A DNA stretch of 64,000 nucleotides, taken from positions 1 to 64,000 of the IMG/VR virus record IMGVR_UViG_3300032304_000672; one strand, 5' to 3'. Position 1 is the first letter of the stretch; every line of letters begins with the position of its first letter. Below, piece by piece: positions 13,169-26,046 of the stretch. The position numbers and the translations under genes were made by a program. The notes under the pieces are model-generated. The model saw nothing but the letters and a program-made list of their open reading frames with translations, had not been told where the DNA came from and did no database searches. This DNA comes from a virus.

Positions 13169-13191
13169 GCGCCAGCCCCTCCTGTACACAA

Positions 13192-13338: not shown

Positions 13339-13374
13339 TTGATAATCCCCTTTCAAGAGATAGATGTTTTATTT

Positions 13375-13403: not shown

Positions 13404-13442
13404 TACCCCCGTAAGAGCTAAGATCAGCCCCTATGTTCCGCC

Positions 13443-14005: not shown

Positions 14006-14318
14006 CTTCATCTTCTTCCTCCTCTTCGTCTTCTTCAAACATTGTATCCACAATGTACTCACGATTCATCATCCATTCAAGTACGTCATCGTTGTGCTGT
14101 TCCGCCCCGTACTCCAGAGAGAAGCCCTGGCCCGCCTCTACAGCCTCACAGAGGTGGTCCCACATCTCATCTATGGTGCAGTTCTGCTTGTAGGTCTCAT
14201 CCTCAAAGATGTTGTTAATGGTAGACCAAGTCCATAGCCAAACTAAGGATAGACCTAGGTCCGTTGTATCTAGAATCTTTAAACATTCATTTAGTTTATC
14301 TTTATCTTCAGGCTTCAT
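13998..14318 (-). CDS. Acidic hypothetical protein
   Basis: A 106-residue acidic, Trp-containing protein ending in a run of Asp and Glu (residues 94-106). The start MKPEDKDKLNEC overlaps the upstream stop. The poly-acidic tail could bind basic proteins. Confidence 0.55.
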   Translation of the reverse strand: MKPEDKDKLNECLKILDTTDLGLSLVWLWTWSTINNIFEDETYKQNCTIDEMWDHLCEAVEAGQGFSLEYGAEQHNDDVLEWMMNREYIVDTMFEEDEEEEEDEDE

Positions 14319-14574
14319 CCCGTGCTCCTTTCGCAAAAGCAATGTCATATGTCAATTTGTACAAATCTCCTAGAGCGTCAAGGTACCCTTCTAGGTGTAA
14401 GCGGTCCACGGTTTGGTCATACTGTTCGTCATCTTGATTTGTATATTCAGATAACTTCTTTTCTGTTTCAACCATTAGGACCTTTAGTTCCCCGTGCATT
14501 ATGTCAGCCCCGTCCATTCCGATGTTTATCATACGTTGCAAATGGGGCGGGAGCCCAATGTCTTCATTATTCAT
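14308..14574 (-). CDS. Hypothetical helical protein
   Basis: An 88-residue helical protein (LPPHLQRMINIG, then EKKLSEYTNQ). A phage-type promoter lies 27 nt upstream, inside the preceding gene, so part of the operon can be expressed separately. Confidence 0.6.
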   Translation of the reverse strand: MNNEDIGLPPHLQRMINIGMDGADIMHGELKVLMVETEKKLSEYTNQDDEQYDQTVDRLHLEGYLDALGDLYKLTYDIAFAKGARDEA

Positions 14575-14764
14575 TAATATACCTTTCGTTAGAGTTATTC
14601 ATTATATCAGTAGCCACTGACAATAAATGTTCGGTTGCCATAATTTGTCCCTGGATATTAATCTTAGATTGAACATTGTAATCACCCTCTAAGTCCTGGT
14701 TAAGACTAATTAGATGTAACTTCATATACTCCAGGAAGTATGATGATTTAGTTTGTGTAGTCAA
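14567..14764 (-). CDS. Hypothetical helical protein
   Basis: A 65-residue, mostly helical protein (YFLEYMKLHLISLNQDLEGD). Its coding sequence contains the phage-type promoter of the next gene. Overlaps neighbours on both sides. Confidence 0.55.
   Translation of the reverse strand: MTTQTKSSYFLEYMKLHLISLNQDLEGDYNVQSKINIQGQIMATEHLLSVATDIMNNSNERYINE
14601..14623 (-). promoter_or_regulatory. Phage-type promoter inside a gene
   Basis: Minus-strand TTGTCAG and TATAAT with 11-nt spacing; reads toward the gene 14308-14574. Confidence 0.75.
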
Positions 14765-14930
14765 AGTAACCCTCCGCCCACAGACCTTGCAAGAAACTAA
14801 CAGCGTCTTCCAAGTCTTTCCTCAAAGGCTCCTTGTTCATTAAATCGGACGGGGTCCTAAGATAAAAAAGCTTTGAATCGTGTACAGCATTAATCATTCT
14901 ATTTAGATCAGACTCAGTGTAACCTAGCAT
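14748..14930 (-). CDS. Hypothetical protein
   Basis: A 60-residue protein (MLGYTESDLNRMINAVHDSK, later FLQGLWAEGYFDY) in the seven-gene overlapping operon. No family recognised. Confidence 0.55.
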   Translation of the reverse strand: MLGYTESDLNRMINAVHDSKLFYLRTPSDLMNKEPLRKDLEDAVSFLQGLWAEGYFDYTN

Positions 14931-15109
14931 AGGTCATACTCCATATCCCAAGATACATCAGGCCAATTTAAATCATATCTTGCGCTATCAACTTCACCTA
15001 AATCGTTTAGGTGTAGATTAATTTTCTCGTGTGCTTCTTTCTCATTATTGGCCATTACTGCACCTTCTAATTTAATTACAAATCCATACTTATTCAAAGT
15101 AGTCCTCAT
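14924..15109 (-). CDS. Hypothetical protein
   Basis: A 61-residue protein with beta-alpha-beta character (KYGFVIKLEGAVMANNEKEA), similar in style to the small protein at 2248-2391. Overlaps neighbours by a few bases. Confidence 0.55.
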   Translation of the reverse strand: MRTTLNKYGFVIKLEGAVMANNEKEAHEKINLHLNDLGEVDSARYDLNWPDVSWDMEYDLC

Positions 15110-15308
15110 CTCCTTCTGTTAGGTTATAGAATTTATTAAATTCAGATTGAATAAACTCATCTCCTGACATTTCAGCAAATTGTTTATCTGCATAATATTG
15201 CCCTTCGTCAAGATTACTATTAATCCAATCTTCAAGTAATTGTTCTGCTATATCTTGGTAGCAAGCGTCAATTACCATTTGATTTACATCTTCTAAGAAA
15301 CTAGCCAT
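15090..15308 (-). CDS. Acidic hypothetical protein
   Basis: A 72-residue acidic helical protein (MASFLEDVNQMVIDACYQDI) that starts within the end of the Api92-like gene. Function unknown. Confidence 0.55.
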   Translation of the reverse strand: MASFLEDVNQMVIDACYQDIAEQLLEDWINSNLDEGQYYADKQFAEMSGDEFIQSEFNKFYNLTEGDEDYFE

Positions 15309-16092
15309 TTAGCGCTTCCTCCTGTGTGTAGGTTTTCAAAGGTAATAATACACTATGGGTCTGACATTCTTTCATAGCCACCTCATCCTGCCAAGAGCCT
15401 TCATTACATTCTGAGCAGAATTCACCGCAGTCATCTTCACAATAACTTAATGTATCGTAAGACTGGCAAGCATAGCAACGATTCTCATATTCAACTAATT
15501 CTTTTACTTCACCACGGACAATCTCATATTCCCCACCCCAACCTGTTTCTTCCTCAAACTCTAATGTAAGCAGGCAGTTAGGAACAAGATTACTTAGTTT
15601 AGTTAAGATAGTTACAGCAGGTGACCAAGCCGTCTCATACTTATAGACAACCCAGTTGTCATCACCTTCTGATTTATATTCAAGCAATTCCGTATTTGGA
15701 TATTTATCACCGTCACGGACGGCTACATCCCATTTAGTTCCCCAGTTGGAGTTATTCCACGAATACCAATCCTTCTGTGTCTTAGCAAACTCAACAGATT
15801 TGCGGAACCAATCAGGGTCATTCTGAATATCTATACCACCACGAGAAGGCTGGCAGGCATACTCTTCATCAGTAATACCTTCATCTTTATATGAGTGAAT
15901 ATTGAAGAAAGCAAAGACAGGATTAGAATAACTTACCTGTTCAATTTTGGTGGGGAATCCTGAAAGACTAATATCACCCATACCATAAGTCTCTTGTGCT
16001 AATGTAAATGGACTATTCAGTCTATCCTTGATATAATCAACTTCTGACTTTGGTCCTTGAATTGTTAACGTATTGTAACACCAATTTGGCAT
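15301..16092 (-). CDS. Api92-like (DUF1281/YubB) ferredoxin-fold protein
   Basis: The 263-residue protein starts MPNWCYNTLTIQGPKSEVDY and contains NSNWGTKWDV, the two hallmarks of the Api92-like/YubB family found on phages and plasmids (function unknown). Residues 205-238 add a Cys-rich zinc-ribbon-like end (CYACQSYD, CEDDCGEFCSEC). It is first gene of the seven-gene operon down to 13443, behind a phage-type promoter. Confidence 0.85.
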   Translation of the reverse strand: MPNWCYNTLTIQGPKSEVDYIKDRLNSPFTLAQETYGMGDISLSGFPTKIEQVSYSNPVFAFFNIHSYKDEGITDEEYACQPSRGGIDIQNDPDWFRKSVEFAKTQKDWYSWNNSNWGTKWDVAVRDGDKYPNTELLEYKSEGDDNWVVYKYETAWSPAVTILTKLSNLVPNCLLTLEFEEETGWGGEYEIVRGEVKELVEYENRCYACQSYDTLSYCEDDCGEFCSECNEGSWQDEVAMKECQTHSVLLPLKTYTQEEALNG

Positions 16093-16117
16093 TTTATTTC
16101 CTTTCGCTAATAACCCA

Positions 16118-16140
16118 ATTATATACTAGACCACTGACAT
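16118..16140 (-). promoter_or_regulatory. Phage-type promoter
   Basis: Minus-strand ATGTCAGT and TATAAT with 11-nt spacing; leader carries CGAAAGGAAATAAA before ATG 16092. Confidence 0.85.
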
Positions 16141-16185
16141 TTGGAATACCTTTTGGGTGTGTTCCACACCACATTTTCCAAGCTA

Positions 16186-16264
16186 TGTGGTCAAGATCAC
16201 AAAATTTCAGGGGAATTATATTGACTTCCGTAAAAGAGATATGATACCCTCACCTGTTGCGGGC
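16186..16264 (-). promoter_or_regulatory. Composite upstream element E1
   Basis: Plus-strand reading: TGTGG-N6-TCACA (16186-16201), AGGG (16209), 16 nt, CGTAA (16229), then TGCGGGC (16258; one base longer than in most copies). It lies upstream of the promoter at 16118. The remainder of the gap 16093-16441 holds only this element, the promoter and hairpins. Confidence 0.75.
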
Positions 16265-16272
16265 AAACAAAA

Positions 16273-16296
16273 ATCCCCCAGGGCAAGCTGGGGGAT
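16273..16296. terminator. Hairpin terminator
   Basis: ATCCCCCAG pairs perfectly with CTGGGGGAT across a 6-nt loop; on the minus strand TTTTTGTTTG follows. A second hairpin GGTCC/GGACC lies near 16402-16415, closer to the end of the gene at 16442. Confidence 0.75.
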
Positions 16297-16441
16297 CAGA
16301 TAAGTAAGGCTGCTAGCAGAACGAAAGGAATTTAGTAAACGCTGCTTTATTTAACGACTTGGGGAAAACCCTAGTAGCCGCACCATACTTTAATGAAAAG
16401 GTCCGCTAGGACCTATTCATATTATAGCATATCTTAGTTAA

Positions 16442-16846
16442 CTAAACTGGGACAACAACATCTGCGTACTTCTCAACGAAGTTACTCAGGTCCATAGTAA
16501 AGAGCGCTTCATTGCTCATCCCATTAACCTTGTTATCCAAATCATTCCTTGGCGCCTCTTCGTGAAGACTGAATGTCTGCTGCTGGAAATCGACAATAGC
16601 AATCTTGTGCTCGTTATCGCCAATCTCATTTACGTGCAAGCCCCATCCAGTTTCCATATTCCACTGGTCCGCAATCATATTACTGATTGTGATACGTGTT
16701 GCATATGAAGGGTCATTCCAACGAGGACGTGCTTTAAACACTGCCTCTGCTAGATTCGCTAGCATTTTATGGCCTGCCCAGTGACCGTATAGTACAATTG
16801 TATTTCCGTTAGGTTGGACGAATCCAAAGTTTGCTCTATCTCCCAT
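16442..16846 (-). CDS. Conserved phage protein (MGDRANF family)
   Basis: A 134-residue protein starting MGDRANFGFVQPNG and continuing IVLYGHWAG, an opening shared by many phage and some plasmid proteins of unknown function. It is complete and ends VVVPV. Last gene of the operon from 17414, overlapping the upstream stop by one base. Confidence 0.8.
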   Translation of the reverse strand: MGDRANFGFVQPNGNTIVLYGHWAGHKMLANLAEAVFKARPRWNDPSYATRITISNMIADQWNMETGWGLHVNEIGDNEHKIAIVDFQQQTFSLHEEAPRNDLDNKVNGMSNEALFTMDLSNFVEKYADVVVPV

Positions 16847-17055
16847 TACATTTCCGCCTTTTCTAGTTGAGGTACTTCTTCGGTTTTATTCAATTCTATC
16901 ATTTCAAAGGAGACCTTGTCAAGGGCCTCTTTGTTTTTATTATAGTGGTGGTGGCAAAAGAAAAGCTCACCATCTACTAGTTTAATTAGATACATAGCCT
17001 GAGCTGTACCGCATTGATCACAGCCGATCCATCTAGTTAGATCCTCAGAGGTCAT
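16846..17055 (-). CDS. DUF7455-like zinc protein
   Basis: The 69-residue protein has CDQCGTAQAMYLIKL then GELFFCHHHYNKNK, the C-x2-C...C-x-H-H layout of the actinobacterial DUF7455 family (known from Streptomyces and actinophages, function unknown). I chose ATG 17055, which overlaps the end of the upstream 51-residue gene, over a longer in-frame start. Confidence 0.75.
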   Translation of the reverse strand: MTSEDLTRWIGCDQCGTAQAMYLIKLVDGELFFCHHHYNKNKEALDKVSFEMIELNKTEEVPQLEKAEM

Positions 17056-17200
17056 AGTCAACGGTTCCAAATTCAATACGGTCTGCAATGTCATCGTATA
17101 CTTGGCCATCATCCTCAGACTCAGCCCACACACGAATGTTTGCGACAATTACTTCACGAGCAAATTTGACGCCGTCTTCAAAACCATCTTGGTAATCCAT
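17045..17200 (-). CDS. Conserved 51-residue phage protein
   Basis: The protein reads MDYQDGFEDGVKFAREVIVA... and ends DRIEFGTVDYDL. I recall this short family in several actinophages; the role is unknown. AAGGAGATAAA precedes ATG. It overlaps the DUF7455-like gene by 11 bp. Confidence 0.7.
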   Translation of the reverse strand: MDYQDGFEDGVKFAREVIVANIRVWAESEDDGQVYDDIADRIEFGTVDYDL

Positions 17201-17201
17201 T

Positions 17202-17414
17202 TTATCTCCTTGTATATCCTGTCGGTTCGTAGTCTGATGTATAACTCTCTGTGAGATTATACTTATCTCGAATCCGACTTACTTTCTCAATGCTACCAGT
17301 TCCGATGTTGAATGTCAACGGTGATAATGCAGTTGGGTCCAGCCCAATCATCTGAGCATCCCAATAGGCCATCTCCATAGATAGCCTATCGGGAGCAGTC
17401 AACTCAAAATACAT
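17202..17414 (-). CDS. Conserved small phage protein
   Basis: A 70-residue protein (MYFELTAPDRLSMEMAYWDA, later SRIRDKYNLTESY). The tail is basic. It overlaps the upstream gene by one base and belongs to the same operon. Function unknown. Confidence 0.6.
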   Translation of the reverse strand: MYFELTAPDRLSMEMAYWDAQMIGLDPTALSPLTFNIGTGSIEKVSRIRDKYNLTESYTSDYEPTGYTRR

Positions 17415-17869
17415 TATGCTTCCCTCACATTACAAACTTCTTGGTCACCAATTTCAATGTTACCATTGTTTGATTCAGCAAAGATAGCATCTGTAATTTC
17501 TGACTCAAGGTCTAAGTCATAATCATTTTCAAGAATGTTGTAAGAATATGTTCCGCTAACTTCGATAGATGCGGTCCACTCAACTTCCTTAATTAATTCA
17601 ATTGATAGCGCTTCAGCAATTTCACGCAATGTGTCTTGGTCTTGTGAGTCTGCATATGCCTCGCAGATAATTTCCTTAACTGCATCAATCTTGCCATTTA
17701 GAACGCCGTTAGTCTTCTGTGCTTGACGGGCATTGTGCAGGTCCCATTCAATTGATGTAACCTTATCAGTTGCATATTCTGCATCTGAATATCCACGGAT
17801 AACTTTATAGGTTACCAATAGATTAGGGTTATATGTATCAGGCACCGTTACTGTGTTTGTCTCTTCCAT
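17414..17869 (-). CDS. Acidic hypothetical protein, short form
   Basis: The 151-residue product MEETNTVTVPDTYN... is acidic with an alternating beta/helix pattern. ATG 17869 has a strong site (GGAAGGAAATAAA) and a dedicated phage-type promoter at 17898-17920. The same frame continues upstream without a stop to ATG 18049, so a longer form can also exist. The main product is more likely the short one because of the promoter and ribosome site. Confidence 0.7.
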   Translation of the reverse strand: MEETNTVTVPDTYNPNLLVTYKVIRGYSDAEYATDKVTSIEWDLHNARQAQKTNGVLNGKIDAVKEIICEAYADSQDQDTLREIAEALSIELIKEVEWTASIEVSGTYSYNILENDYDLDLESEITDAIFAESNNGNIEIGDQEVCNVREA

Positions 17870-18049
17870 TTTATTTCCTTCCGTTTCTGTTGGTTGTATT
17901 GTAGCATCTTCGACTGACAATAACACTGTACTATTGTTACACGGGCATGTGATATTAGTCACAGGCTGAAATGCATCGGGACATGTAAATTCAATTAAAG
18001 AATCACATGTACTGCACACGTATGTATATTTACTCCAGGTTTGTGTCAT
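17414..18049 (-). CDS. Long form of the same frame with N-terminal zinc ribbon
   Basis: From ATG 18049 the frame adds 60 residues with a Cys4 zinc ribbon: VCSTCDS and TCPD, then TCPCNN. A second phage-type promoter at 18056-18078 ends 6 nt before this ATG, so this mRNA would be leaderless. Alternatively the 60-residue part was once a separate gene whose stop was lost. The spacer and internal promoter are translated as VEDATIQPTETEGNK. Confidence 0.5.
   Translation of the reverse strand: MTQTWSKYTYVCSTCDSLIEFTCPDAFQPVTNITCPCNNSTVLLSVEDATIQPTETEGNKMEETNTVTVPDTYNPNLLVTYKVIRGYSDAEYATDKVTSIEWDLHNARQAQKTNGVLNGKIDAVKEIICEAYADSQDQDTLREIAEALSIELIKEVEWTASIEVSGTYSYNILENDYDLDLESEITDAIFAESNNGNIEIGDQEVCNVREA
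17898..17920 (-). promoter_or_regulatory. Phage-type promoter inside the long frame
   Basis: Minus-strand TTGTCAGT and TACAAT with 11-nt spacing. Confidence 0.8.
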
Positions 18050-18055
18050 GCGAGT

Positions 18056-18078
18056 ATTGTACAGGACCCCACTGACAT
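18056..18078 (-). promoter_or_regulatory. Phage-type promoter, leaderless
   Basis: Minus-strand ATGTCAGT and TACAAT with 11-nt spacing; 6 nt from -10 to ATG 18049. Confidence 0.8.
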
Positions 18079-18087
18079 TTACAATAG

Positions 18088-18147
18088 AATTCAGGGCTTT
18101 TTTTATGTGATCCGTAACACAGAAATCCTGCCTTCAATGTTGCGGGC
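18088..18147 (-). promoter_or_regulatory. Composite upstream element E2
   Basis: Plus-strand reading: GAATTC, AGGG (18093), 16 nt, CGTAA (18113), 23 nt, TGCGGGC (18141). It lacks the Crp-like palindrome and lies directly upstream of the promoter at 18056. Confidence 0.75.
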
Positions 18148-18175
18148 GTCTCATATATTGAGAATCAAATCTTAG

Positions 18176-18249
18176 CGATCCATATCGGACTTGAACCGAC
18201 GGCCTCTACCGTGACAGGGTAGCGCTCTAACCAACTGAGCTAATGGACC
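18176..18249 (-). tRNA. tRNA-Asp (GTC)
   Basis: The minus strand folds into a full cloverleaf: acceptor GGTCCAT with ATGGATC (one G-U pair), anticodon loop CTGTCAC giving GTC, and T-arm with GGTTCAAGTCC. No CCA is encoded. It sits alone, 9 kb from the other tRNAs, between two phage-type units. Confidence 0.92.
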
Positions 18250-18290
18250 TAATGGTGAGCAGTTTTAAATCTTGCTCAGGATTTTTTTAT

Positions 18291-19295
18291 TTAGAAAGTT
18301 GCAACCATTCGATACAACTTATTTTTTTCTGCGGTTAGAATTGGGTCAAACCCTGATGCACCCGCCATAAGAGTTTCACCATTGCCACGACCTGAACGAT
18401 AGTAATCAAGGCGCTCAGTTAGTGCATTGAACGCACCCCACTTTGTTCCCTTGATTGTAGCGTTAGTTGGTGAGTTGTGATACAAATCGTCAATGAGAAC
18501 AACTTTGTTTTCCCATTTCTTCAATGAACCCTTCAAATCCTTGTCAGGCTTAGGATAGATTGTCTGAATCAACTTAGAGAATTCAGCATCGGTGATTGCT
18601 TGTGAGTAAAGTGCCTTTGCTTGAACTTCGAATTCATCAAAGTATCCAAGAGCAAGCCCAAGAGTTTCACGAGCAACTTGAATGCGACCTTCAACAGATT
18701 GCGTGTGGCGAATCTTGAAAGATTGCTTAGCATTCTTCATTGCAAGGTTTAGCGTGTTTTGGCATACAACACGAACAGGTGTAACGGCTGCTTGAACAGC
18801 AACAGAACCATCGTGTGAAGTCCAGACAATGAGATAAAGTTTTGTCTCATCGTTGGCGCCTTGTGGGTCAAGAACCATTGTGCGTGGAATGTCCACAGTT
18901 CCGAACACAACTTTGCCCTTCTTTAGTGAGCCAGCAGATTCCCAACGGCAATCAGCATTGGCATCGTGAATTGCATCAGCGAATGCAAACAGTTCTTCAT
19001 TCTGAACTGGCTTGTAACGTTTTCCAACAGTTGCGAGAACATCAGTTCCGCCGTTGAATGGATTGTCACGAATGACAAGAGATGCTTCTGAAACATCATT
19101 CCAAGATTCTGAAATGTGGTCAGTTAGTGGAGACAAGCGAACATTCCAATTTGCTAACTTTGCTTCTTCAAGCATTGTTGCAGTTGTAACTTCCTCATCT
19201 TTTGTGAAGATACGATTTGCAAGGTTGTGCCAAGCAGGTGCGCCACGAAGAGCAAATGCAACTTCGCCGTTTTCGACTTCGAGATTGTGAGCCAT
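18291..19295 (-). CDS. DUF932 / phage-plasmid-like protein
   Basis: The 334-residue protein has the DUF932 layout: GAPAWHNLANRIF near the start, VGKRYKPVQNEELF, and VTPVRVVCQNTLNLAM in the middle. The family is common on phages and plasmids and its role is unknown. It is complete, has a phage-type promoter and is monocistronic. Codon choice seems richer in G/C-ending codons than its tiny neighbours. Confidence 0.9.
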   Translation of the reverse strand: MAHNLEVENGEVAFALRGAPAWHNLANRIFTKDEEVTTATMLEEAKLANWNVRLSPLTDHISESWNDVSEASLVIRDNPFNGGTDVLATVGKRYKPVQNEELFAFADAIHDANADCRWESAGSLKKGKVVFGTVDIPRTMVLDPQGANDETKLYLIVWTSHDGSVAVQAAVTPVRVVCQNTLNLAMKNAKQSFKIRHTQSVEGRIQVARETLGLALGYFDEFEVQAKALYSQAITDAEFSKLIQTIYPKPDKDLKGSLKKWENKVVLIDDLYHNSPTNATIKGTKWGAFNALTERLDYYRSGRGNGETLMAGASGFDPILTAEKNKLYRMVATF

Positions 19296-19325
19296 TTATT
19301 TCCTTTCGATTAGTTGTTGATTGCA

Positions 19326-19348
19326 ATTATAACAGGTGGCACTGACAT
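19326..19348 (-). promoter_or_regulatory. Phage-type promoter of DUF932 gene
   Basis: Minus-strand ATGTCAGT and TATAAT with 11-nt spacing. Here a TAGACA also sits 17 nt from the -10 and could act as a normal -35. Confidence 0.85.
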
Positions 19349-19385
19349 TGTCTAGATTAGTTAGTCATTTGTCCGAATTGTCTGG

Positions 19386-19463
19386 GGTGATCATTATCAC
19401 AAATTTTTGGGGGTTTTCCACAGGTAGTCGTAAGGCTGTGGATAACCCCGCAGCTCTGCGGGC
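19386..19463 (-). promoter_or_regulatory. Composite upstream element E3
   Basis: Plus-strand reading: GGTGA-N6-TCACA (19386-19401), GGGG (19409), CGTAA (19429), TGCGGGC (19457). TTTTCCACAG (19414-19423) and CTGTGGATAA (19436-19445) form an inverted DnaA-box-like pair around CGTAA. Confidence 0.78.
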
Positions 19464-19475
19464 AGCTGGGGAAAT

Positions 19476-19499
19476 AGGGCGGGAATAAGATCCCGCCCT
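19476..19499. terminator. Hairpin terminator
   Basis: AGGGCGGGA pairs perfectly with TCCCGCCCT across 6 nt, just after the gene at 19506-19745. Confidence 0.75.
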
Positions 19500-19505
19500 A
19501 AGTCT

Positions 19506-19745
19506 TTAGATTAGTTTAGTTAATTCAGTTTTCTTAGGAAGAACGTCCATTGGTAAAAACAAAGCAGTTGTTTTCTTTTTCTTTATGTTGTCATAAACAA
19601 ACGCTTTAATGTTTCCTTGAAATCTGCGTAGATTAGAAAATACCATTTCAGTTAAGTATTCTTTATCTACACCTTGCTCAGAGTAAAGAGTTAAATCGTT
19701 AGCCTTTACTTCATCATAGATTTCAATTCTATAACGATTTTTCAT
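19506..19745 (-). CDS. Hypothetical protein
   Basis: A 79-residue basic protein (MKNRYRIEIYDEVKANDLTL, later NIKKKKTTALFLPMD). It has a normally spaced promoter at 19773-19802 rather than the phage type. Function unknown. Confidence 0.6.
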   Translation of the reverse strand: MKNRYRIEIYDEVKANDLTLYSEQGVDKEYLTEMVFSNLRRFQGNIKAFVYDNIKKKKTTALFLPMDVLPKKTELTKLI

Positions 19746-19772
19746 TTTGTTCCTTTGTTAGTAGGGATACGA

Positions 19773-19802
19773 ATTATAGCATTGGGACGTATAGTTTGTC
19801 TA
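19773..19802 (-). promoter_or_regulatory. Canonical-spacing promoter
   Basis: Minus-strand TAGACA, 18-nt spacer, TATAAT (19778-19773). Confidence 0.6.
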
Positions 19803-19890
19803 GCCCCGTAGGGTTGAGCAGTTTTGCGACTTACTCAGGTCGTTTGGGTTTAGGTGTCTAGACTTTGTGTGCTAACCCCCCAAAACCTAT

Positions 19891-20307
19891 TTAGAGATAC
19901 TTAGCAATCTGCTTCATTGTAGAAGCATTTACTGTTTCCTCATCTGTCATTTTGAGAATTGTTAGGGCATTTGTAATGTCCTCTTTCATCTCACGATAAC
20001 TGTGCTGATGGATTTGCTCAAAATCCTTTTCAGGTTCAGCAGGGAAGTTGCCTTCCTTTGTGATAATGTCAAAATCAACATTGAGAGTGTTGTTCCATTG
20101 ACGATAGTTTGTGCGAAGGTTCTCAGCCTTTGAGAAGTTAGCAATAGCCCACTTACCAATTTCCTTTTTCCACGCTTCTACTGCTTTCTGAAACTTTGCT
20201 TCTTTTTCTGATTGTGAAGCATAGTCTTTCTCTAGTGTTGCTAGACGAGTTTCTAGTGCCTTGATTACTTTGGTAGTTGCTACCTTTACTGTGATTTGTC
20301 TTGACAT
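19891..20307 (-). CDS. Hypothetical coiled-coil protein
   Basis: A 138-residue protein starting MSRQITVKVATTKVIKALET, with a long charged coiled coil (residues 14-55) and a C-terminal helix ending STMKQIAKYL. I chose ATG 20307, directly behind the CGAAAGGGAA site, rather than an in-frame ATG that would place the promoter inside the gene. Function unknown. Confidence 0.65.
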   Translation of the reverse strand: MSRQITVKVATTKVIKALETRLATLEKDYASQSEKEAKFQKAVEAWKKEIGKWAIANFSKAENLRTNYRQWNNTLNVDFDIITKEGNFPAEPEKDFEQIHQHSYREMKEDITNALTILKMTDEETVNASTMKQIAKYL

Positions 20308-20338
20308 TTTTTCCCTTTCGTTTAGTTTGTTTGGTTGT

Positions 20339-20361
20339 ATTGTATCAGGTGCTACTGACAT
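20339..20361 (-). promoter_or_regulatory. Phage-type promoter
   Basis: Minus-strand ATGTCAGT and TACAAT with 11-nt spacing. A TCCACC/GGTGGA hairpin follows at 20363-20378. Confidence 0.8.
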
Positions 20362-20439
20362 TTCCACCCGAAGGTGGAGAGTTCTTACTTACGACATTGG
20401 ACTAGAACACTCTCTAAACTGTCCCTGTTTCGATTTTAT

Positions 20440-20595
20440 TTAGTTGTTAGGTGCGCTAGTCCAGCGTTCCTTGCCATTTACATCAAGCAGGATACGATTT
20501 GTTCCGCTAGGGTGATTATCAACCGCCTTGATAACTCCTGTGATACCGCTTGTTGTTGTTGTGTAGGTCTGACCTACTTCTAGTGTTGTTGTCAT
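20440..20595 (-). CDS. Conserved small beta-rich protein
   Basis: A 51-residue protein MTTTLEVGQTYTTTTSGITG... ending GKERWTSAPNN, a pattern of an SH3-like beta barrel. I chose the ATG behind CGAAAGGAAAC; a longer frame would include the promoter. Function unknown. Confidence 0.65.
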   Translation of the reverse strand: MTTTLEVGQTYTTTTSGITGVIKAVDNHPSGTNRILLDVNGKERWTSAPNN

Positions 20596-20620
20596 TTTGT
20601 TTCCTTTCGCTAGGGTTGTT

Positions 20621-20643
20621 ATTATACAGGGTGGGTCTGACAT
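20621..20643 (-). promoter_or_regulatory. Phage-type promoter
   Basis: Minus-strand ATGTCAG and TATAAT with 11-nt spacing. Confidence 0.82.
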
Positions 20644-20678
20644 TTTCCACCCCAATCTTATTATTTGAGATGATAAGC

Positions 20679-20696
20679 GTGTGAGTAATCTCACAC
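20679..20696. promoter_or_regulatory. Crp-like palindrome or terminator
   Basis: CGTGTGAGTAATCTCACACG is a perfect palindrome with arms around TGTGA-N6-TCACA. It sits both upstream of the promoter at 20621 and just after the gene at 20711, so it may be an operator, a hairpin terminator, or both. Confidence 0.55.
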
Positions 20697-20710
20697 GCCT
20701 ATCTTGATCC

Positions 20711-20980
20711 CTAGTCCTCGTATTGAGGGAGCCACGCTTCTAGGTGGTGAGCATCTACTATTGCAGACGCAGGGCAGGAAGTCTGACCTCGCCAAGTGAT
20801 ACCTTCAGGAAGATTAATCTCTCGACTATACTCCTCATCATAGAACGCATCAATAGCGTCTATGCAAGGTTGCACCATTGAGACGGGAACGGGTGGGTAA
20901 TGATTACCTTGTAAGTGATAGGCAAGTCCTGCCTCTAGTCCTAATTCTTCTTCTAGTGCTAACGCTGTTGTGTATCCCAT
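20711..20980 (-). CDS. Hypothetical protein
   Basis: An 89-residue acidic protein starting MGYTTALALEEELGLEAGLA, later PEGITWRGQTSCPASA. The start overlaps the upstream stop in TAATG, so the longer in-frame start was not used. Function unknown. Confidence 0.62.
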   Translation of the reverse strand: MGYTTALALEEELGLEAGLAYHLQGNHYPPVPVSMVQPCIDAIDAFYDEEYSREINLPEGITWRGQTSCPASAIVDAHHLEAWLPQYED

Positions 20981-21204
20981 TAGATAGTTTCCTTTACTGT
21001 TAATTCTGCCCAAGTGTTATTTTCATTTGCTACTGTTAGTGTGTTAGACATAGCAAGAGCGTTAATTGTTGCATCCTTACACATTTGCTGAATTGCAGTT
21101 TCATCAAGAGCAATTAGCGCAGGCAATAAGTTTGCAGGGATTTTATCCAAGTCAATAATTGCCTCGAATACTACTGTGTGTGGAACTTTCATTAGGTTAG
21201 ACAT
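20980..21204 (-). CDS. Hypothetical protein
   Basis: A 74-residue protein (MSNLMKVPHTVVFEAIIDLD, then a helical middle and TWAELTVKETI). First gene of a two-gene unit with a phage-type promoter and CGAAAGGTAAC site. A second ATG four codons later is also possible. Confidence 0.62.
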   Translation of the reverse strand: MSNLMKVPHTVVFEAIIDLDKIPANLLPALIALDETAIQQMCKDATINALAMSNTLTVANENNTWAELTVKETI

Positions 21205-21233
21205 TTGTTACCTTTCGTTGTTGGAATAATGGT

Positions 21234-21256
21234 ATTTTACACTAAGCCACTGACAT
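21234..21256 (-). promoter_or_regulatory. Phage-type promoter
   Basis: Minus-strand ATGTCAGT and TAAAAT with 11-nt spacing. Confidence 0.8.
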
Positions 21257-21288
21257 TACCTAATCCATTATGGGCGTGTCGCAGCTTT

Positions 21289-21366
21289 TGTGAGATTAAT
21301 CACAAAATTTCAGGGTTATCCACAACTAGTCCGTAAGCCTGTGGATAAACCCGCAGTATTGCGGGC
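21289..21366 (-). promoter_or_regulatory. Composite upstream element E4
   Basis: The most complete copy. Plus-strand reading: TGTGA-N6-TCACA (21289-21304), AGGG (21312), CGTAA (21332), TGCGGGC (21360), with inverted TTATCCACAA (21316-21325) and CTGTGGATAA (21339-21348) flanking CGTAA. Confidence 0.82.
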
Positions 21367-21369
21367 CCT

Positions 21370-21483
21370 TTACTCTTCTTCGGACCAGATATCAGGATCC
21401 TTTTCTTTTAAATATTCTAGTGCAGCTTTTCTCTGATCATCAGTTCCCATTACCGTGGCCATTAATGCATTGAAGTATTCCAT
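21370..21483 (-). CDS. Tiny acidic protein
   Basis: A 37-residue protein (MEYFNALMATVMGTDDQRKA... ending DIWSEEE). AAGGAGAAATAAA precedes ATG and it follows the GP88-like gene in the same unit. Function unknown. Confidence 0.55.
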   Translation of the reverse strand: MEYFNALMATVMGTDDQRKAALEYLKEKDPDIWSEEE

Positions 21484-21495
21484 TTTTATTTCTCC

Positions 21496-22245
21496 TTATT
21501 TTTTAGTTGCGCTAAATCGAATGTCTGCTTTACCGTAAACACATAATCCACAAGATACACAAGCAGAACCAGCATTGCTAATTAGTGGAATTGATTTCAT
21601 ATTCTCAGGACACTTAGCGCCAGGCTTGCCCGTCAATTCTTTCATTGTGCTTTCGGTTACGGCGAATGTCTTCCCTAAGTATGCAAGGCGAATACCTTCA
21701 TTTGCTTTTAGTTCGTGACCGATTTCTTTATTATCATCGTCGGTAGAATAGTAAAGAGATAGGTTAGATACATCCTTAAGAATAAGCGCTGCAGACTTTA
21801 CACGTGTGTAAACCCAGAATTGAACATCGGTGTGCTCATTGATTACATTCTTCCAGGCATAAGTATAGAAATCATTAAAGAAATCCCCGTCCCAGTGGAT
21901 ACGGAATAACTTAGGAGCGTCTTTCTTATCACAATCAGATTTAAATTCAATAATCATTTCATTTAGCAATTGATACATTGTTTCCATATCAGCATTGCGT
22001 AGCAATTCCCAATTGTGTAGAAGATTAGTTTTTACTCCCTTGAAGAGTTTTTCCAATTTTCCTGCGTAGCAAACACTCTCACAAATACTAGTGGCACCAG
22101 GGCACGAGTAATCCTTTCCAGCGGGGAGACCGAACGTGTTAGCAATTGCGGCTTGCTTTCCATTTTTTGTGACAAGGTTAGCCACCTTTCTATCATTAGA
22201 ACGTTTTAGTTTCATAGGCGTAATTATAGCGGTTAGGTCCGACAT
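21496..22245 (-). CDS. GP88-domain protein with Cys clusters
   Basis: The 249-residue protein matches the layout I know as phage gene product 88 (GP88): FGLPAGKDYSCPG, then CYAGKLEKLFKGV, LFRIHWDGDFFN and FWVYTRVK. Cys residues lie in two groups, CPGATSICESVC and CPENMK plus CVSCGLC, which suggests an iron-sulfur or zinc site. The role of the family is unknown. ATG 22245 sits one base after the upstream stop and is preferred to a longer frame. Confidence 0.8.
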   Translation of the reverse strand: MSDLTAIITPMKLKRSNDRKVANLVTKNGKQAAIANTFGLPAGKDYSCPGATSICESVCYAGKLEKLFKGVKTNLLHNWELLRNADMETMYQLLNEMIIEFKSDCDKKDAPKLFRIHWDGDFFNDFYTYAWKNVINEHTDVQFWVYTRVKSAALILKDVSNLSLYYSTDDDNKEIGHELKANEGIRLAYLGKTFAVTESTMKELTGKPGAKCPENMKSIPLISNAGSACVSCGLCVYGKADIRFSATKK

Positions 22246-22246
22246 A

Positions 22247-22456
22247 TTAGTAATCTTCATCCATACCAAAACCAGCGGAAGCAAGAGCATCGGAATCAGC
22301 CCAGCCAGTTAATTCATAGAATTCCATTTCTTCAGCATCATAGCATTCAGCGCAGATATAGTCATCACCATAGATTTCATATTCTTCAATTGAATCGAAA
22401 GTTTCTTGAGCACCACAAATTTCATAGTTCAAGCAAGCGACAGTAAATAGTTCCAT
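22247..22456 (-). CDS. Acidic zinc-ribbon protein
   Basis: A 69-residue, very acidic protein with two Cys pairs (CLNYEIC and CAEC) and an aromatic tail. It is first gene of the GP88 unit. Function unknown. Confidence 0.62.
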   Translation of the reverse strand: MELFTVACLNYEICGAQETFDSIEEYEIYGDDYICAECYDAEEMEFYELTGWADSDALASAGFGMDEDY

Positions 22457-22486
22457 TATGGACCTCTTTCGTTAGTAGATAGTGGA

Positions 22487-22509
22487 ATTATAGCAGACTA
22501 GACTGACAT
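22487..22509 (-). promoter_or_regulatory. Phage-type promoter of GP88 unit
   Basis: Minus-strand ATGTCAGT and TATAAT with 11-nt spacing, preceded by an A-tract. Confidence 0.85.
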
Positions 22510-22524
22510 TTTTTGCAACTCGCT

Positions 22525-22588
22525 CAAAATTCTAGGGTGTTTTAGATCACACCCGTAACGACACGCCCGACTCCGCAGCTCTGCGGGC
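22525..22588 (-). promoter_or_regulatory. Composite upstream element E5
   Basis: Plus-strand reading: AGGG (22534), CGTAA (22554), TGCGGGC (22582), exact standard spacing. A weak Crp-like site, GGTGT-N6-TCACA (22536-22551), is shifted inside the N16. Confidence 0.75.
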
Positions 22589-22620
22589 ATCCCGCTTGTT
22601 TGTCAAGCGGGGCACACCAT

Positions 22621-22818
22621 TTATTTAACGCTAACCTTTTTCTTTTTTATTAGCGCTTTAATTTGTCTTTCTGTTACTCGTGTTCGTTCTGTTGAATACT
22701 TATAAATTGTTCCCGCCTTCTTTGCTTCCTTTACATAGATGCGGTCAAACTCTGCACGATGCTTTTTAATTAACTGCTTTACTGCTTCGTTTCTAATTGC
22801 TGTTGCTGGTGGTGTCAT
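22621..22818 (-). CDS. Basic hypothetical protein
   Basis: A 65-residue, strongly basic helical protein (AVKQLIKKHRAEFDRIYVKE, ending IKKKKVSVK) that may bind nucleic acid. Last gene of the operon from 23485. Function unknown. Confidence 0.6.
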   Translation of the reverse strand: MTPPATAIRNEAVKQLIKKHRAEFDRIYVKEAKKAGTIYKYSTERTRVTERQIKALIKKKKVSVK

Positions 22819-22820
22819 TT

Positions 22821-22955
22821 TTATTCCCTTTCGTTTTTGTTTTTGTGTTTTGTTTTGCGTGTGTATTTCTTTTTATTCCTAACAGGTTGCGCCGCATTAC
22901 TGCGACGCAATTCCTGAATGCGTTTTACCTTATCAAGAACGGAACTGCGGAACAT
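22821..22955 (-). CDS. Small basic protein
   Basis: A 44-residue protein, MFRSSVLDKVKRIQELRRSN then a Lys/Arg/Asn-rich tail. It overlaps the upstream gene by 23 bp and its stop is 2 bp from the next ATG. Likely nucleic-acid binding by charge only. Confidence 0.5.
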   Translation of the reverse strand: MFRSSVLDKVKRIQELRRSNAAQPVRNKKKYTRKTKHKNKNERE

Positions 22956-23121
22956 TATACCCACTCGCTTCGTGAAATCGTTTTACATCAAATCGCTCAT
23001 TATCTTTTGCGAACATCTCCGCAAAATCATTTACCATTTTAGAAAATACAGCAGGGTGAGTTTTATTGCTGACATACTTTAGAATTTCTGCCGTTGCGAT
23101 GTAATCTTTTCTAGTCATCAT
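22933..23121 (-). CDS. Hypothetical protein
   Basis: A 62-residue helical protein (MMTRKDYIATAEILKYVSNK, later FDVKRFHEASGY). I recognise the style of a common small phage protein (TRKDY...A..L) without function. Overlaps neighbours. Confidence 0.65.
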   Translation of the reverse strand: MMTRKDYIATAEILKYVSNKTHPAVFSKMVNDFAEMFAKDNERFDVKRFHEASGYNVPQFRS

Positions 23122-23321
23122 TTTACTGCCACCATTCCGCTACGATAGAAAACTTTTGTATAGCATTTGCCTGCTGGCGTGTAGAGATTAACTGTAGAGT
23201 ATTCGTTAGCCATTCCCCAGTCGGTGAATAAGAAAAAGTTTTCCCACGCACCAAATTCGCTTTCGTATTCTGCTGACCAATGCGGAGCATTTGAGTCATA
23301 GGCGCAAGTTAGTTTATACAT
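23118..23321 (-). CDS. Hypothetical protein
   Basis: A 67-residue aromatic protein (MYKLTCAYDSNAPHWSAEYE..., later WGMANEYSTVNLY). ATG 23321 overlaps the upstream stop in TAATG and is preferred to a start five codons earlier. Confidence 0.6.
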   Translation of the reverse strand: MYKLTCAYDSNAPHWSAEYESEFGAWENFFLFTDWGMANEYSTVNLYTPAGKCYTKVFYRSGMVAVK

Positions 23322-23485
23322 TATCCATTTACCCAATCTACTGTTAATTCATCTGCTACATCTGCGATACAATCGCAAGGCTCGCAATCATAATTATTTT
23401 CATTTCCCCAAAATACAAATCCTGCGCCACCGCATTCATCACAATTCGCTGCGATTATTTCTATGTATTCTTTCATTTTAGCCAT
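23321..23485 (-). CDS. DnaJ-type zinc-ribbon mini-protein
   Basis: A 54-residue protein with CDECGGAGF and later CEPCDC, the CxxCGGxG pattern of DnaJ-like zinc fingers. It opens the operon behind the phage-type promoter at 23518. It could bind unfolded protein or just be a zinc mini-protein. Confidence 0.6.
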   Translation of the reverse strand: MAKMKEYIEIIAANCDECGGAGFVFWGNENNYDCEPCDCIADVADELTVDWVNG

Positions 23486-23517
23486 TTAGGTTTTCCCTTT
23501 CGTTTGTTTGTTTAGTT

Positions 23518-23540
23518 ATTGTATCAGGTAGCACTGACAA
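23518..23540 (-). promoter_or_regulatory. Phage-type promoter
   Basis: Minus-strand TTGTCAGT and TACAAT with 11-nt spacing. Confidence 0.82.
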
Positions 23541-23541
23541 A

Positions 23542-23664
23542 TTAGATAGCGCCCTCTTGAAATAATCCAATTTCAAGAGTTAGCATTTCATCGGGTGTTG
23601 CTTCGGATAAATCTACCCAGCCAGCACCCTCGTTGTCCATTCGGAAAATTTCGATGTATCCCAT
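23542..23664 (-). CDS. Small acidic protein
   Basis: A 40-residue protein, MGYIEIFRMDNEGAGWVDLS then EATPDEML. It follows the gene 23667-23873 in the same unit; its stop is one base from the next promoter. Function unknown. Confidence 0.5.
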   Translation of the reverse strand: MGYIEIFRMDNEGAGWVDLSEATPDEMLTLEIGLFQEGAI

Positions 23665-23666
23665 TA

Positions 23667-23873
23667 TTATTCACCAACCTTTACTGCGATTGTTGCGAAT
23701 TTATTTCGCAGACCGCCAGCACGAACCTCGATTAGATAGGCTTCAGTTTTTTCGCCATACCAAATTTCTGGGCGGTGTTCCGCTGAAACGATTTCGCCAG
23801 AAAAATGGCGATTTCGTGAGCGATAGTTTTTCCCTACAAGTAGGCTTTCGATTGTGTATAGTTTGGTAGCCAT
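23667..23873 (-). CDS. Hypothetical beta-rich protein
   Basis: A 68-residue protein (MATKLYTIESLLVGKNYRSR, later RHFSGEIVSAEHRPEIWYGE) with beta character. It is behind a phage-type promoter. Function unknown. Confidence 0.6.
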   Translation of the reverse strand: MATKLYTIESLLVGKNYRSRNRHFSGEIVSAEHRPEIWYGEKTEAYLIEVRAGGLRNKFATIAVKVGE

Positions 23874-23908
23874 TGGCAGACCTTCTTTCGTTTGTTGTTA
23901 TGTATGGA

Positions 23909-23931
23909 ATTATACACGAACGGACTGACAT
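23909..23931 (-). promoter_or_regulatory. Phage-type promoter
   Basis: Minus-strand ATGTCAGT and TATAAT with 11-nt spacing. Confidence 0.85.
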
Positions 23932-23978
23932 TTTCACATTACTAGCCAGTAAATCCAAATAGTGAGACGCTCAAGCCG

Positions 23979-23994
23979 TGTGATACTAATCACA
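23979..23994. promoter_or_regulatory. Crp/GlxR-like palindrome
   Basis: TGTGA-TACTAA-TCACA, a perfect match to the half-site pair, about 80 nt upstream of the predicted start of the promoter at 23909. Confidence 0.7.
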
Positions 23995-24033
23995 TAAAAA
24001 TGTCCGATTTGTCTGTCAAATCGACACGCCGTA

Positions 24034-24094
24034 GAATTCAGGGAATTTTATAACAAATCCGTAACGACACGCCCGACCCCGTGCCTTTGCGGGC
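24034..24094 (-). promoter_or_regulatory. Composite upstream element E6
   Basis: Plus-strand reading: GAATTC, AGGG (24040), CGTAA (24060), TGCGGGC (24088), standard spacing. It is next to two hairpin repeats that end in CGACACGCCG (near 24005-24031 and 24098-24122). Confidence 0.75.
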
Positions 24095-24127
24095 CAGCTT
24101 GAGTTTGTCAAGCCGACACGCCGTTAG

Positions 24128-24223
24128 TTATTCAAAATCTTCAAATATTTTTTCTAGTTGAAGAATTTGCTCATCGGTAAGATGATCTAATTCGATTGCG
24201 TGTTCGAATCCATAAAATTCCAT
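24128..24223 (-). CDS. Tiny acidic protein
   Basis: A 31-residue protein, MEFYGFEHAIELDHLTDEQI..., last gene of a three-gene unit. AGGAAAAATAAAA precedes ATG. Function unknown. Confidence 0.48.
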   Translation of the reverse strand: MEFYGFEHAIELDHLTDEQILQLEKIFEDFE

Positions 24224-24225
24224 TT

Positions 24226-24357
24226 TTATTTTTCCTCTTCTTCTAAATTAAAAGTGTTTTCTAAAACGGAATTTGCTTTAGTTAAAGCGGATAACGCATT
24301 CGCAAGACTTTCCTTGCGTTGTGTTTCAACGTGATTTTTAAATTCTTCTAAATTCAT
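24226..24357 (-). CDS. Small helical protein
   Basis: A 43-residue helical acidic protein, MNLEEFKNHVETQRKESLAN..., overlapping the upstream stop in TAATG. Function unknown. Confidence 0.5.
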   Translation of the reverse strand: MNLEEFKNHVETQRKESLANALSALTKANSVLENTFNLEEEEK

Positions 24358-24527
24358 TAGTTAGACTCCTTATCTAAACAGTTAATACAATTACAATTTT
24401 TACTAGAGAATAAAAACTTTAACAACTCTTTACGAGTGTAAGTATCTAAACCATAAGAGGATTTTACTCCGCCGTTATGGTAATCGTGAACGATAGTAGA
24501 GAATAGAGTTTCATTTAGTGTAGTCAT
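24357..24527 (-). CDS. Small protein with Cys knuckle
   Basis: A 56-residue protein with SSYGLDTYTRKELLKFLF and then CNCINC near the end. First gene of its unit behind a phage-type promoter. Function unknown. Confidence 0.55.
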   Translation of the reverse strand: MTTLNETLFSTIVHDYHNGGVKSSYGLDTYTRKELLKFLFSSKNCNCINCLDKESN

Positions 24528-24580
24528 TTGAGACCACCTTTCTTTTAACGATTAAAACCTTATTTAATCTTGATACTAGT

Positions 24581-24603
24581 ATCCTATCATAGACCACTGA
24601 CAT
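24581..24603 (-). promoter_or_regulatory. Phage-type promoter, weak -10
   Basis: Minus-strand ATGTCAGT and TAGGAT with 11-nt spacing. Confidence 0.7.
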
Positions 24604-24640
24604 TTTGACCCCTTTTTCGGGCGTGTCGGAAAACTATTTT

Positions 24641-24737
24641 TGTGATTTAGGTCATGTGGATAACTTACGCTCAAATTTTGGGGGATTTCCACACCTGTGC
24701 ATAAAGCTGTGGATAACGCCCGCAAAAGACTGCGGGC
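24641..24737 (-). promoter_or_regulatory. Composite upstream element E7, variant
   Basis: Plus-strand reading: TGTGA-N6-TCATG (24641-24656), a DnaA-like GTGGATAA (24656-24663), GGGG (24680), CATAA in place of CGTAA (24700), TGCGGGC (24731, 3 nt longer). ATTTCCACAC (24685-24694) and CTGTGGATAA (24707-24716) form the inverted pair. Confidence 0.65.
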
Positions 24738-24771
24738 CGAATCGCCTTTGTCAAGGCGACACGCCGTTAGG

Positions 24772-24897
24772 CTAGTGTGATTTATCCCACTCTCTAAAGT
24801 CTGCGACGATCTCCCGCCACATTAGGCGGAGCATTAGCAGGGTAGGTATTCCGATACCTAATTGGACGGCGGTAGTTAGTAAGCGATTAGTAGTCAT
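24772..24897 (-). CDS. Small membrane-type protein
   Basis: A 41-residue protein with a short hydrophobic segment (VQLGIGIPTLLMLRLMW) and a charged end. Last gene of a four-gene unit; overlaps the upstream stop in TAATG. Confidence 0.5.
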   Translation of the reverse strand: MTTNRLLTTAVQLGIGIPTLLMLRLMWREIVADFREWDKSH

Positions 24898-25052
24898 TAC
24901 TTATTCTTCTTTCTCTTATAAATCTTATAAGCGATTAGTGCTAGGGCGGTGATAATAATAGTGTGCCAAGGTAAGTAGATAGAGCCTAAGAAACTATCAA
25001 ACTCTAATCCGTATTCGCTTGTTATGTATAAATCAAATCCGTTAGGTATCAT
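24897..25052 (-). CDS. Single-pass membrane protein
   Basis: A 51-residue protein with one TM helix (about residues 29-43) followed by a basic tail (YKIYKRKKNK), consistent with N-out topology. Overlaps neighbours by 1-4 bp. Confidence 0.52.
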   Translation of the reverse strand: MIPNGFDLYITSEYGLEFDSFLGSIYLPWHTIIITALALIAYKIYKRKKNK

Positions 25053-25225
25053 TCGTATGCCTCCCAATCTAATGTTAATGATTTAGATAATTCATCTTCA
25101 TCGTATTCGGTAGAGCCTAACTCTATTAAGCCCTCTTCTAGAGCCTTGTTATACATTTCTTCTTCATCAAGATAGACATAAGCGTCTGCTACATCTGCCT
25201 GAATAGTATCCCATTTAGTCATCAT
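25049..25225 (-). CDS. Acidic hypothetical protein
   Basis: A 58-residue acidic protein, MMTKWDTIQADVADAYVYLD, later EYDEDELSKSLTLDWEAYE. Overlaps both neighbours. Function unknown. Confidence 0.52.
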   Translation of the reverse strand: MMTKWDTIQADVADAYVYLDEEEMYNKALEEGLIELGSTEYDEDELSKSLTLDWEAYE

Positions 25226-25377
25226 TACTTTACCTCTACTTCTCTAATGTTATAAGTGAAACCCTTACCGAGTTTATTTAGTTCAGCAATTACCGCTAAG
25301 ATTTCTTCAGGCTTACTAGCCTTTTGATTTACGGCTAATAGTTGAGAGCCTTGCCATAGTGTGTAGGTTATTGTCAT
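25225..25377 (-). CDS. Small hypothetical protein
   Basis: A 50-residue protein MTITYTLWQGSQLLAVNQKA... with a beta-alpha-beta pattern. First gene of the four-gene unit ending at 24772. Function unknown. Confidence 0.55.
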   Translation of the reverse strand: MTITYTLWQGSQLLAVNQKASKPEEILAVIAELNKLGKGFTYNIREVEVK

Positions 25378-25493
25378 TTTATTTTCTATCCTTTTCGTTA
25401 GTTGTTAGTTGGTTGTTGAGCGATTATTTGCTAGGCTCACCTTTCGGATTATTTGCTAGGCTCACGCTCTAATTCTTATTTAGTTATGGTGTA

Positions 25494-25516
25494 ACCTTAT
25501 CACGGGCTACTGACAT
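25494..25516 (-). promoter_or_regulatory. Phage-type promoter, weak -10
   Basis: Minus-strand ATGTCAGT and TAAGGT with 11-nt spacing; the leader to ATG 25377 is long and contains a direct repeat GATTATTTGCTAGGCTCAC-like around 25420-25465. Confidence 0.65.
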
Positions 25517-25526
25517 TTAGTCGGAT

Positions 25527-25637
25527 TTAGCCGATAGTGTCGGTGTGATTATGCTCACACTTAGACTCTATCTCGTGTCCGTATTCCTCTACGAGTTCCT
25601 CGTAGATTTCGTCCATATAGTCAAGATAATCGTTCAT
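25527..25637 (-). CDS. Tiny acidic protein
   Basis: A 36-residue protein, MNDYLDYMDEIYEELVEEYG..., with CEHNHT near the end. Its 3' part contains the Crp-like site TGTGA-N6-TCACA at 25544-25559, so that site is inside a gene here. Function unknown. Confidence 0.45.
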   Translation of the reverse strand: MNDYLDYMDEIYEELVEEYGHEIESKCEHNHTDTIG

Positions 25638-25795
25638 TAGTTATTCTCCTTTCCAAGAGTGTTGTGTGTAGCGTAGTTACCGCCACACATTACGCAGAGT
25701 GTCCAAGCGGTTACTCTACCGCACCCTGCTGAGCAAGATACATAGTCGTTATTAGTAAGGTAGTCGTTACGACTTTCCCAAATTCTGTTTGTCAT
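25637..25795 (-). CDS. Small zinc-ribbon protein
   Basis: A 52-residue protein with CSAGCGR and CVMCGG, a Cys4 zinc site. First gene of the outermost minus-strand unit. Overlaps the next gene in TAATG. Confidence 0.55.
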   Translation of the reverse strand: MTNRIWESRNDYLTNNDYVSCSAGCGRVTAWTLCVMCGGNYATHNTLGKENN

Positions 25796-25848
25796 TTTAT
25801 TGACCTTTCTTTTTAAGTATTAAGTATTTCTTAACTTCTTATACTATA

Positions 25849-25871
25849 AGCCTAACAGGGGGGACTGACAA
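25849..25871 (-). promoter_or_regulatory. Phage-type promoter, weak -10
   Basis: Minus-strand TTGTCAGT and TAGGCT with 11-nt spacing; the outermost member of the array. Confidence 0.65.
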
Positions 25872-25908
25872 ATAGGGGGGTTACTGGCAAGTATTGTTAA
25901 ACTATTTT

Positions 25909-25924
25909 TGTGATTAGCATCACA
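25909..25924. promoter_or_regulatory. Crp/GlxR-like palindrome
   Basis: TGTGA-TTAGCA-TCACA in the divergent spacer between minus and plus units, about 77 nt upstream of the predicted minus start. Confidence 0.7.
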
Positions 25925-26011
25925 TCTACGCTCAAAGTTAATAATCTATGGGCGCACTATATAGACAAAACGGACATTTTAAAACTCTGGATCATACAAA
26001 ATAAATGGCTA

Positions 26012-26046
26012 TTAACATTTTGATAAATCTGATATTGCAGTTGACT
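26012..26046 (+). repeat. 35-bp promoter repeat, copy 1
   Basis: Starts TTAACATTTTGATAAATCTG and ends AGTTGACT; 31 of 35 bases match copy 2 at 26652-26686. Both lie just before tiny genes. Confidence 0.65.

Follow-up and report, generated by a model that had tools for sequence, protein, structure and literature searches.

A recurrent two-box element of fixed spacing and orientation in the predicted direct terminal repeat of freshwater relatives of Streptomyces phages

Promoters read by ECF sigma factors, such as Bacillus SigW and Streptomyces SigE, have, by the motifs usually given for them, two unlike boxes with a spacer of about 16 bp, a T-rich tract after the upstream box and a downstream box of the CGTA type. 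The element reported here is alike in these respects, but it has AGGG rather than (GG)AAC, an extra CCC box, and neither a phage sigma gene nor a downstream gene to go with it. Phage T7 carries gene-less rightward promoters at its genome ends, phiOL and phiOR, which are linked to replication or packaging and are recognised by a polymerase that the phage itself encodes. Here too there are gene-less rightward sites at genome ends, although the sequences are unrelated and we identified no phage polymerase for the element. The stoperators of cluster A mycobacteriophages and the SAS/ESAS of cluster K are short intergenic repeats whose orientation is constant relative to transcription; as generally described, they are dissimilar in sequence, consist of single boxes placed at start codons or at repressor sites, and are not restricted to a direct terminal repeat (DTR). 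The terminal repeat of phage T5, which carries the first-entering genes, contains repeats, palindromes and DnaA boxes (PMC13250531). The element resembles the T5 injection stop signal in lying in a DTR with repeats and DnaA boxes, with the qualification that the DTR of the freshwater phages is predicted by homology and that one of seven genomes has no DnaA boxes there; the T5 signal is one region, however, whereas the element is a defined two-box unit recurring along the whole DTR. The earlier note knew of no described element with such a grammar, and our literature search, whose coverage lacked most subscription journals, found none either; as far as that search shows, the element is undescribed.

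The window, by which we mean the whole stretch of DNA analysed, is the initial 64 kb of a 103,695 bp IMG/VR virus record (39% GC), with genes called mechanically. Since proteins of phage EGole are matched along a common gene order (TerL 58%, DNA polymerase 56%, portal 57%, capsid 61% and ribonucleotide reductase 66%), the virus is, to judge from its predicted proteins, a freshwater relative of Stanwilliamsviridae, a family of Streptomyces phages. The freshwater habitat is suggested by a lake MAG with a close terminase, and the predicted product of a WhiB family gene (3391–3750) is an indication of an actinobacterial host. A terminase search for the host returned only two MAG contigs, with an implausible host label, and a search of genome contigs with the DNA pattern of the element gave no match.

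The EGole record has an exact DTR of 11,341 bp whose internal right end is TGTAT^CGTACA, and four further Streptomyces phages have the same end point (GTAT^CATACA). The homologous motif occurs once per genome in seven freshwater genomes and lies at 25985–26020 in the window, the cut presumably falling in ...GGAT^CATACA... From this homologue, kept in the 7 freshwater genomes and 5 Streptomyces phages, and from a weak clustering of the contig ends of related records near the tandem array described below, the DTR of the window is predicted at about 12.1–25.99 kb (12116–25991, the left limit being approximate). The right-end motif GTGTATCRTACAAANTAAAAATATATTAACATTT was also located at 105487 in G001, 29035 in G002, 66634 in G003 and 29841 in G010; the Streptomyces phage records end exactly within its homologue, and it could serve to locate DTR ends in uncultured relatives.

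The earlier note had described seven copies of a composite element in the window. All seven exist, but the total is ten, three tandem copies having been missed, or eleven with a weak coding match. The pattern AGGG-N16-CGTAA-N20..28-TGCGGGC has five exact matches, all on the plus strand (16209, 18093, 21312, 22534 and 24040), against 0 expected from 100 shuffles, and when the entire genome was scanned with a profile, the strong hits were all on the plus strand, between 12.4 and 24.1 kb. An extra profile match at 27982 (score 21), inside a coding region, is probably due to chance. All ten copies lie within the predicted DTR. The three tandem ones, none of which has TGCGGGC, are at 12416–12457 (AGGG-N16-CGTAA-N13-CCC; profile score 42.8), 12473–12514, 57 nt past the first (37.3), and 12595–12636 (49.9), each on the plus strand, and a cluster of DnaA-type boxes (TTATCCACA/TTTTCCACA; 12641–12685) lies immediately past this array. 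The other seven, also on the plus strand, are E1 (16209–16264; exact match, 43.7), with a CRP/GlxR-like site TGTGGTCAAGATCACA at 16186–16201; E2 (18093–18147; exact, 45.6), which adjoins a tRNA-Asp gene and whose CGTAA is flanked by CRP-like half sites; E3 (19410–19463; 38.9) and E4 (21312–21366; exact, 37.8), both with a DnaA box within each spacer, E4 being preceded in addition by a CRP/GlxR-like site TGTGAGATTAATCACA at 21289–21304; E5 (22534–22588) and E6 (24040–24094), both exact matches of the CGACACGCC class with a score of 33.0; and E7 (24681–24737), a degenerate copy ending in TGCGGGC that was read from the sequence and falls under the profile threshold.

The AGGG and CGTAA boxes that the earlier note gave for all seven are exact in five; E3 reads GGGG-N15-CGTAA and E7 GGGG-N15-CATAA. 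Its distances from CGTAA to TGCGGGC (28 nt in five copies, 29 in E1 and 31 in E7) were confirmed, and its placing of a spacing-constrained composite element, after the 3′ end of one leftward gene and before the promoter of the gene that follows, is supported. A CRP-like site at fixed distance from AGGG is present 7 bp ahead of it in E1 and E4, but the one also claimed for E3 is weaker (GGTGATCATTATCACA). The fillers, said to differ, are indeed locus-specific, but in many cases recognisable DnaA boxes or CRP/GlxR-like sites occur in them. That the copies are confined to the predicted DTR had been missed, as had the left-end tandem array common to the Streptomyces phages.

A lack of conserved spacing in related phages had been named beforehand as grounds for rejecting the element, as had hits no more common than in shuffled spacers; neither was observed. 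Eighty-one related loci were fetched via homology to one protein, and hence were not picked for the motif. In these the gap between AGGG and CGTAA is 15 nt in 119 and 16 nt in 133 distinct contexts, counted after de-duplication, with copies from related phages not being independent; the other gaps tried, from 8 to 25, gave 0–5 each. Profile hits number about 0–1 per shuffled genome and 8–10 per real genome, and within each of the seven freshwater genomes the 8–10 copies are on a single strand, all 65 of 65 hits pointing the same way. Sequence logos give a common core of AAwTTYCAGGG-n(n)-TTTT...YCGTAA, in which the T-tract holds 14 nt from CGTAA at either gap. TGCGGGC had been taken as the defining third word, but it is missing from the tandem copies, and the fixed third box is instead CCC, 13 nt past CGTAA. 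In the intergenic copies CCCnCA pairs with TGnGGGC, and the array copies keep CCC at 13 nt without TGnGGGC, which rules out TGCGGGC as an obligatory box; it is secondary, being the distal arm of a hairpin based on CCC.

Between the array and the predicted right end of the DTR lie 64 of the 65 profile hits in the seven freshwater genomes, although the left limit of the DTR was itself derived from the array, so the stronger statement is that the remaining 85–90% of the genome holds no hit but the one weak coding match. DnaA boxes and CRP/GlxR-like sites are concentrated in the predicted DTR as well. With the DTR taken as about a tenth of the genome, exact CRP-like sites number 36 inside and 0 outside it, DnaA boxes 39 and 13, and leftward TGTCAGT promoters 69 and 2 in the same seven genomes; the DTR of G002 has no DnaA box, so the DnaA association is not universal. 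In many copies a CRP/GlxR-like site lies 5–7 bp ahead of AGGG, and the fillers fall into classes with DnaA boxes in either orientation in both spacers, with CRP-like half sites around CGTAA, or with CGACACGCC. By their sequence these DnaA and CRP/GlxR-like sites would be bound by host proteins.

In the leftward early promoters (minus strand, window 12116–25985) TGTCAGT sits about 10 nt ahead of TATAAT, and most intergenic copies of the element lie 14 to 130 bp from such a promoter and upstream of it (219 cases). The elements might then be operators of the leftward early genes, at which a host or phage regulator, together with CRP/GlxR and DnaA, times expression. That the promoters share the restriction to the DTR, and that the element mostly keeps one orientation with respect to the genes, would suit such a role, but the distance to the promoter is not fixed, no leftward gene lies to the left of the array, and in the Streptomyces phages the array stands at the genome end itself; we consider this explanation unlikely. 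An upstream activator site at fixed distance from the leftward promoters was ruled out by the varying distances. The upstream CRP-like site belongs to the element, since its distance to AGGG is fixed at 5–7 bp while the distance to the leftward promoter varies from 14 to more than 110 bp. An array at the very genome end cannot serve a leftward gene, which makes gene control less likely for the array copies than a role at the level of the DTR (entry, replication, duplication or packaging).

The explanation we tentatively prefer, at a probability of about 0.4, is that the element is a rightward, inward-pointing promoter-like site that has the geometry of ECF promoters, serves no gene of its own and is confined to the DTR. 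AGGG, preceded by AAwTTYC and followed by a T-tract, would act as the −35 box and CGTAA, 15–16 bp away, as the −10 box. Two unlike boxes at a hard 15/16-nt spacing suggest a pair of recognition domains such as a sigma holoenzyme has, and this feature, the fixed upstream regulator site and the single orientation bring the element closer to an ECF-type promoter than to a repeated site for a single protein. The rightward ECF-like resemblance that the earlier note had remarked on holds on hundreds of copies, in the 15/16-nt spacing, the T-tract and the CGTAA box, and the distance matches the ECF range of 15–17 bp in 252 distinct copies. The sequence, the spacing and the orientation of the element, together with its restriction to the predicted DTR and the sites associated with it, are observed; its reading by RNA polymerase, the sigma factor involved and its purpose are inferred. 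The AAC-type −35 word is missing, AGGG or CCGGG standing in its place, and AGGG is not known as an ECF −35 word. The CCC box 13 nt past CGTAA has no sigma-factor explanation and counts against a promoter. A gene for sigma region 2 (PF04542) gave no match in 18 phage genomes, and helix-turn-helix domains like region 4 (PF08281, PF04545) gave matches below threshold only, so no phage-encoded sigma factor was found; a promoter would consequently require a host or unknown factor, and the hosts differ. Behind most freshwater copies no rightward gene starts directly, the sites lying mostly between leftward genes.

The box pair is kept across phages of ~39% GC (TTYCAGGGnTTTT) and phage ends of ~55% GC (TTCCGGGAATTTT). 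Eight Streptomyces phages, of three genera and one unclassified, have 4–6 copies of CGTAA on the plus strand in their first 760 nt, and TTACG occurs just twice in the first 1,100 nt of the eight; the consensus of this form is TTCCGGGAATTTT...CATTCGTAAAG, with GG beginning 17–19 nt ahead of CGTAA in most copies, and the CCC box at 13 nt is not common to it. In five Streptomyces phage genomes every copy scored within the first 760 nt is on the plus strand. A profile built without EGole and run on that genome found five left-end copies, present in both DTR copies, a CGTAC variant 0.92 kb ahead of the DTR right end, again in both, and one weaker minus-strand match, strong hits being confined to the two DTR copies. 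The CGTAC variant, the only form to precede a rightward gene, is well conserved and also found in four other phages, about 270–330 nt upstream of an HNH endonuclease gene, the sole rightward gene of the DTR in the Streptomyces phages, which appears, as read by eye, to have a sigma70-like promoter of its own. The rest of the Streptomyces DTR has no clear intergenic copies. Near the right end of the EGole DTR (L006, 10422–10700) a conserved CCTATCGTACACGCGCGGGGG site is followed by a stretch rich in ATGTCCG/TATGTACC repeats.

In the main rival explanation, a phage-encoded DNA-binding protein with a function in the DTR (a replication initiator, or one in DTR duplication or packaging) would bind the boxes as direct repeats, the array being primary and the freshwater lineage having added copies along the DTR. 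Such a protein would account for the confinement seen in both the freshwater genomes and EGole, and for tandem copies of one orientation at the DTR left end, followed in the freshwater phages by a DnaA-box cluster; it needs no downstream gene, a motif kept across hosts makes a phage factor likely, and the family has a conserved 48-aa helix-turn-helix protein. The tandem copies (3 in the window, 4–6 in the Streptomyces phages) are, however, irregularly spaced, 28 to 212 nt apart, which would set them apart from classical iterons; 6–7 copies are solitary, lie in spacers between genes and are associated with CRP-like sites; and no candidate protein is linked to the motif. We regard this explanation as possible, though short of probable. 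The 48-aa protein (L009, 11694–11786, or 95694–95786 of the whole record) is kept in freshwater and Streptomyces members and is a candidate binder; its similarity to Sigma70_r4, HTH_23 and others is below cut-off.

In several filler classes inverted repeats surround CGTAA (e.g. AGGGTTATCCACA...TGTGGATAACCC), and the pairing of left and right fillers gives a pooled permutation z of −4.4, as might be expected of a structured RNA or cruciform with CGTAA in its loop. Permuting the right arms within classes nevertheless removes the signal, no class consistently beats its permutations, and the Streptomyces set gives p = 0.20, so that a universal hairpin or cruciform with covarying arms is ruled out and a structural role in general seems most improbable; the pooled signal arises from class-specific DnaA or CRP palindromes. 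An Rfam search gave no match above threshold besides tRNAs.

If the element is a promoter, host regulators could tune it, through CRP/GlxR-like sites 5–7 bp upstream or centred on CGTAA and through DnaA boxes within the spacers, and short rightward RNAs would run into the GC hairpin or terminator of the preceding leftward gene. Rather than protein expression, its use would most plausibly be in processes that act on DTR DNA which has just entered or is being replicated, such as entry assisted by transcription, priming by RNA, or DTR duplication. The fullest version, in which gene-less inward promoters throughout the family are tuned by host CRP and DnaA and transcription itself, not its product, moves or copies the DTR in entry or RNA-primed duplication, is speculative, and we think it distinctly unlikely as a whole.

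The finding supplies a cis-element, precisely defined and open to testing, for freshwater actinophages, a large group, and for the Streptomyces phages related to them, which can be cultured. The terminal repeats of these phages are about 11–14 kb long and crowded with genes whose function is unknown. The finding also allows the DTR end to be predicted in phages not yet cultured, it would link global regulators of the host (CRP/GlxR-like, DnaA) to a single compartment of the genome, and entry, replication and end duplication of long-DTR phages become testable in Streptomyces laboratory systems. Two minor features of the window may be added: CGACACGCC occurs 7 times within the element region of this genome and 0 times elsewhere, and short repeats of the form GTCAA..CGACACGCCGT surround E6 and E7 (24011–24127 and 24746–24767).
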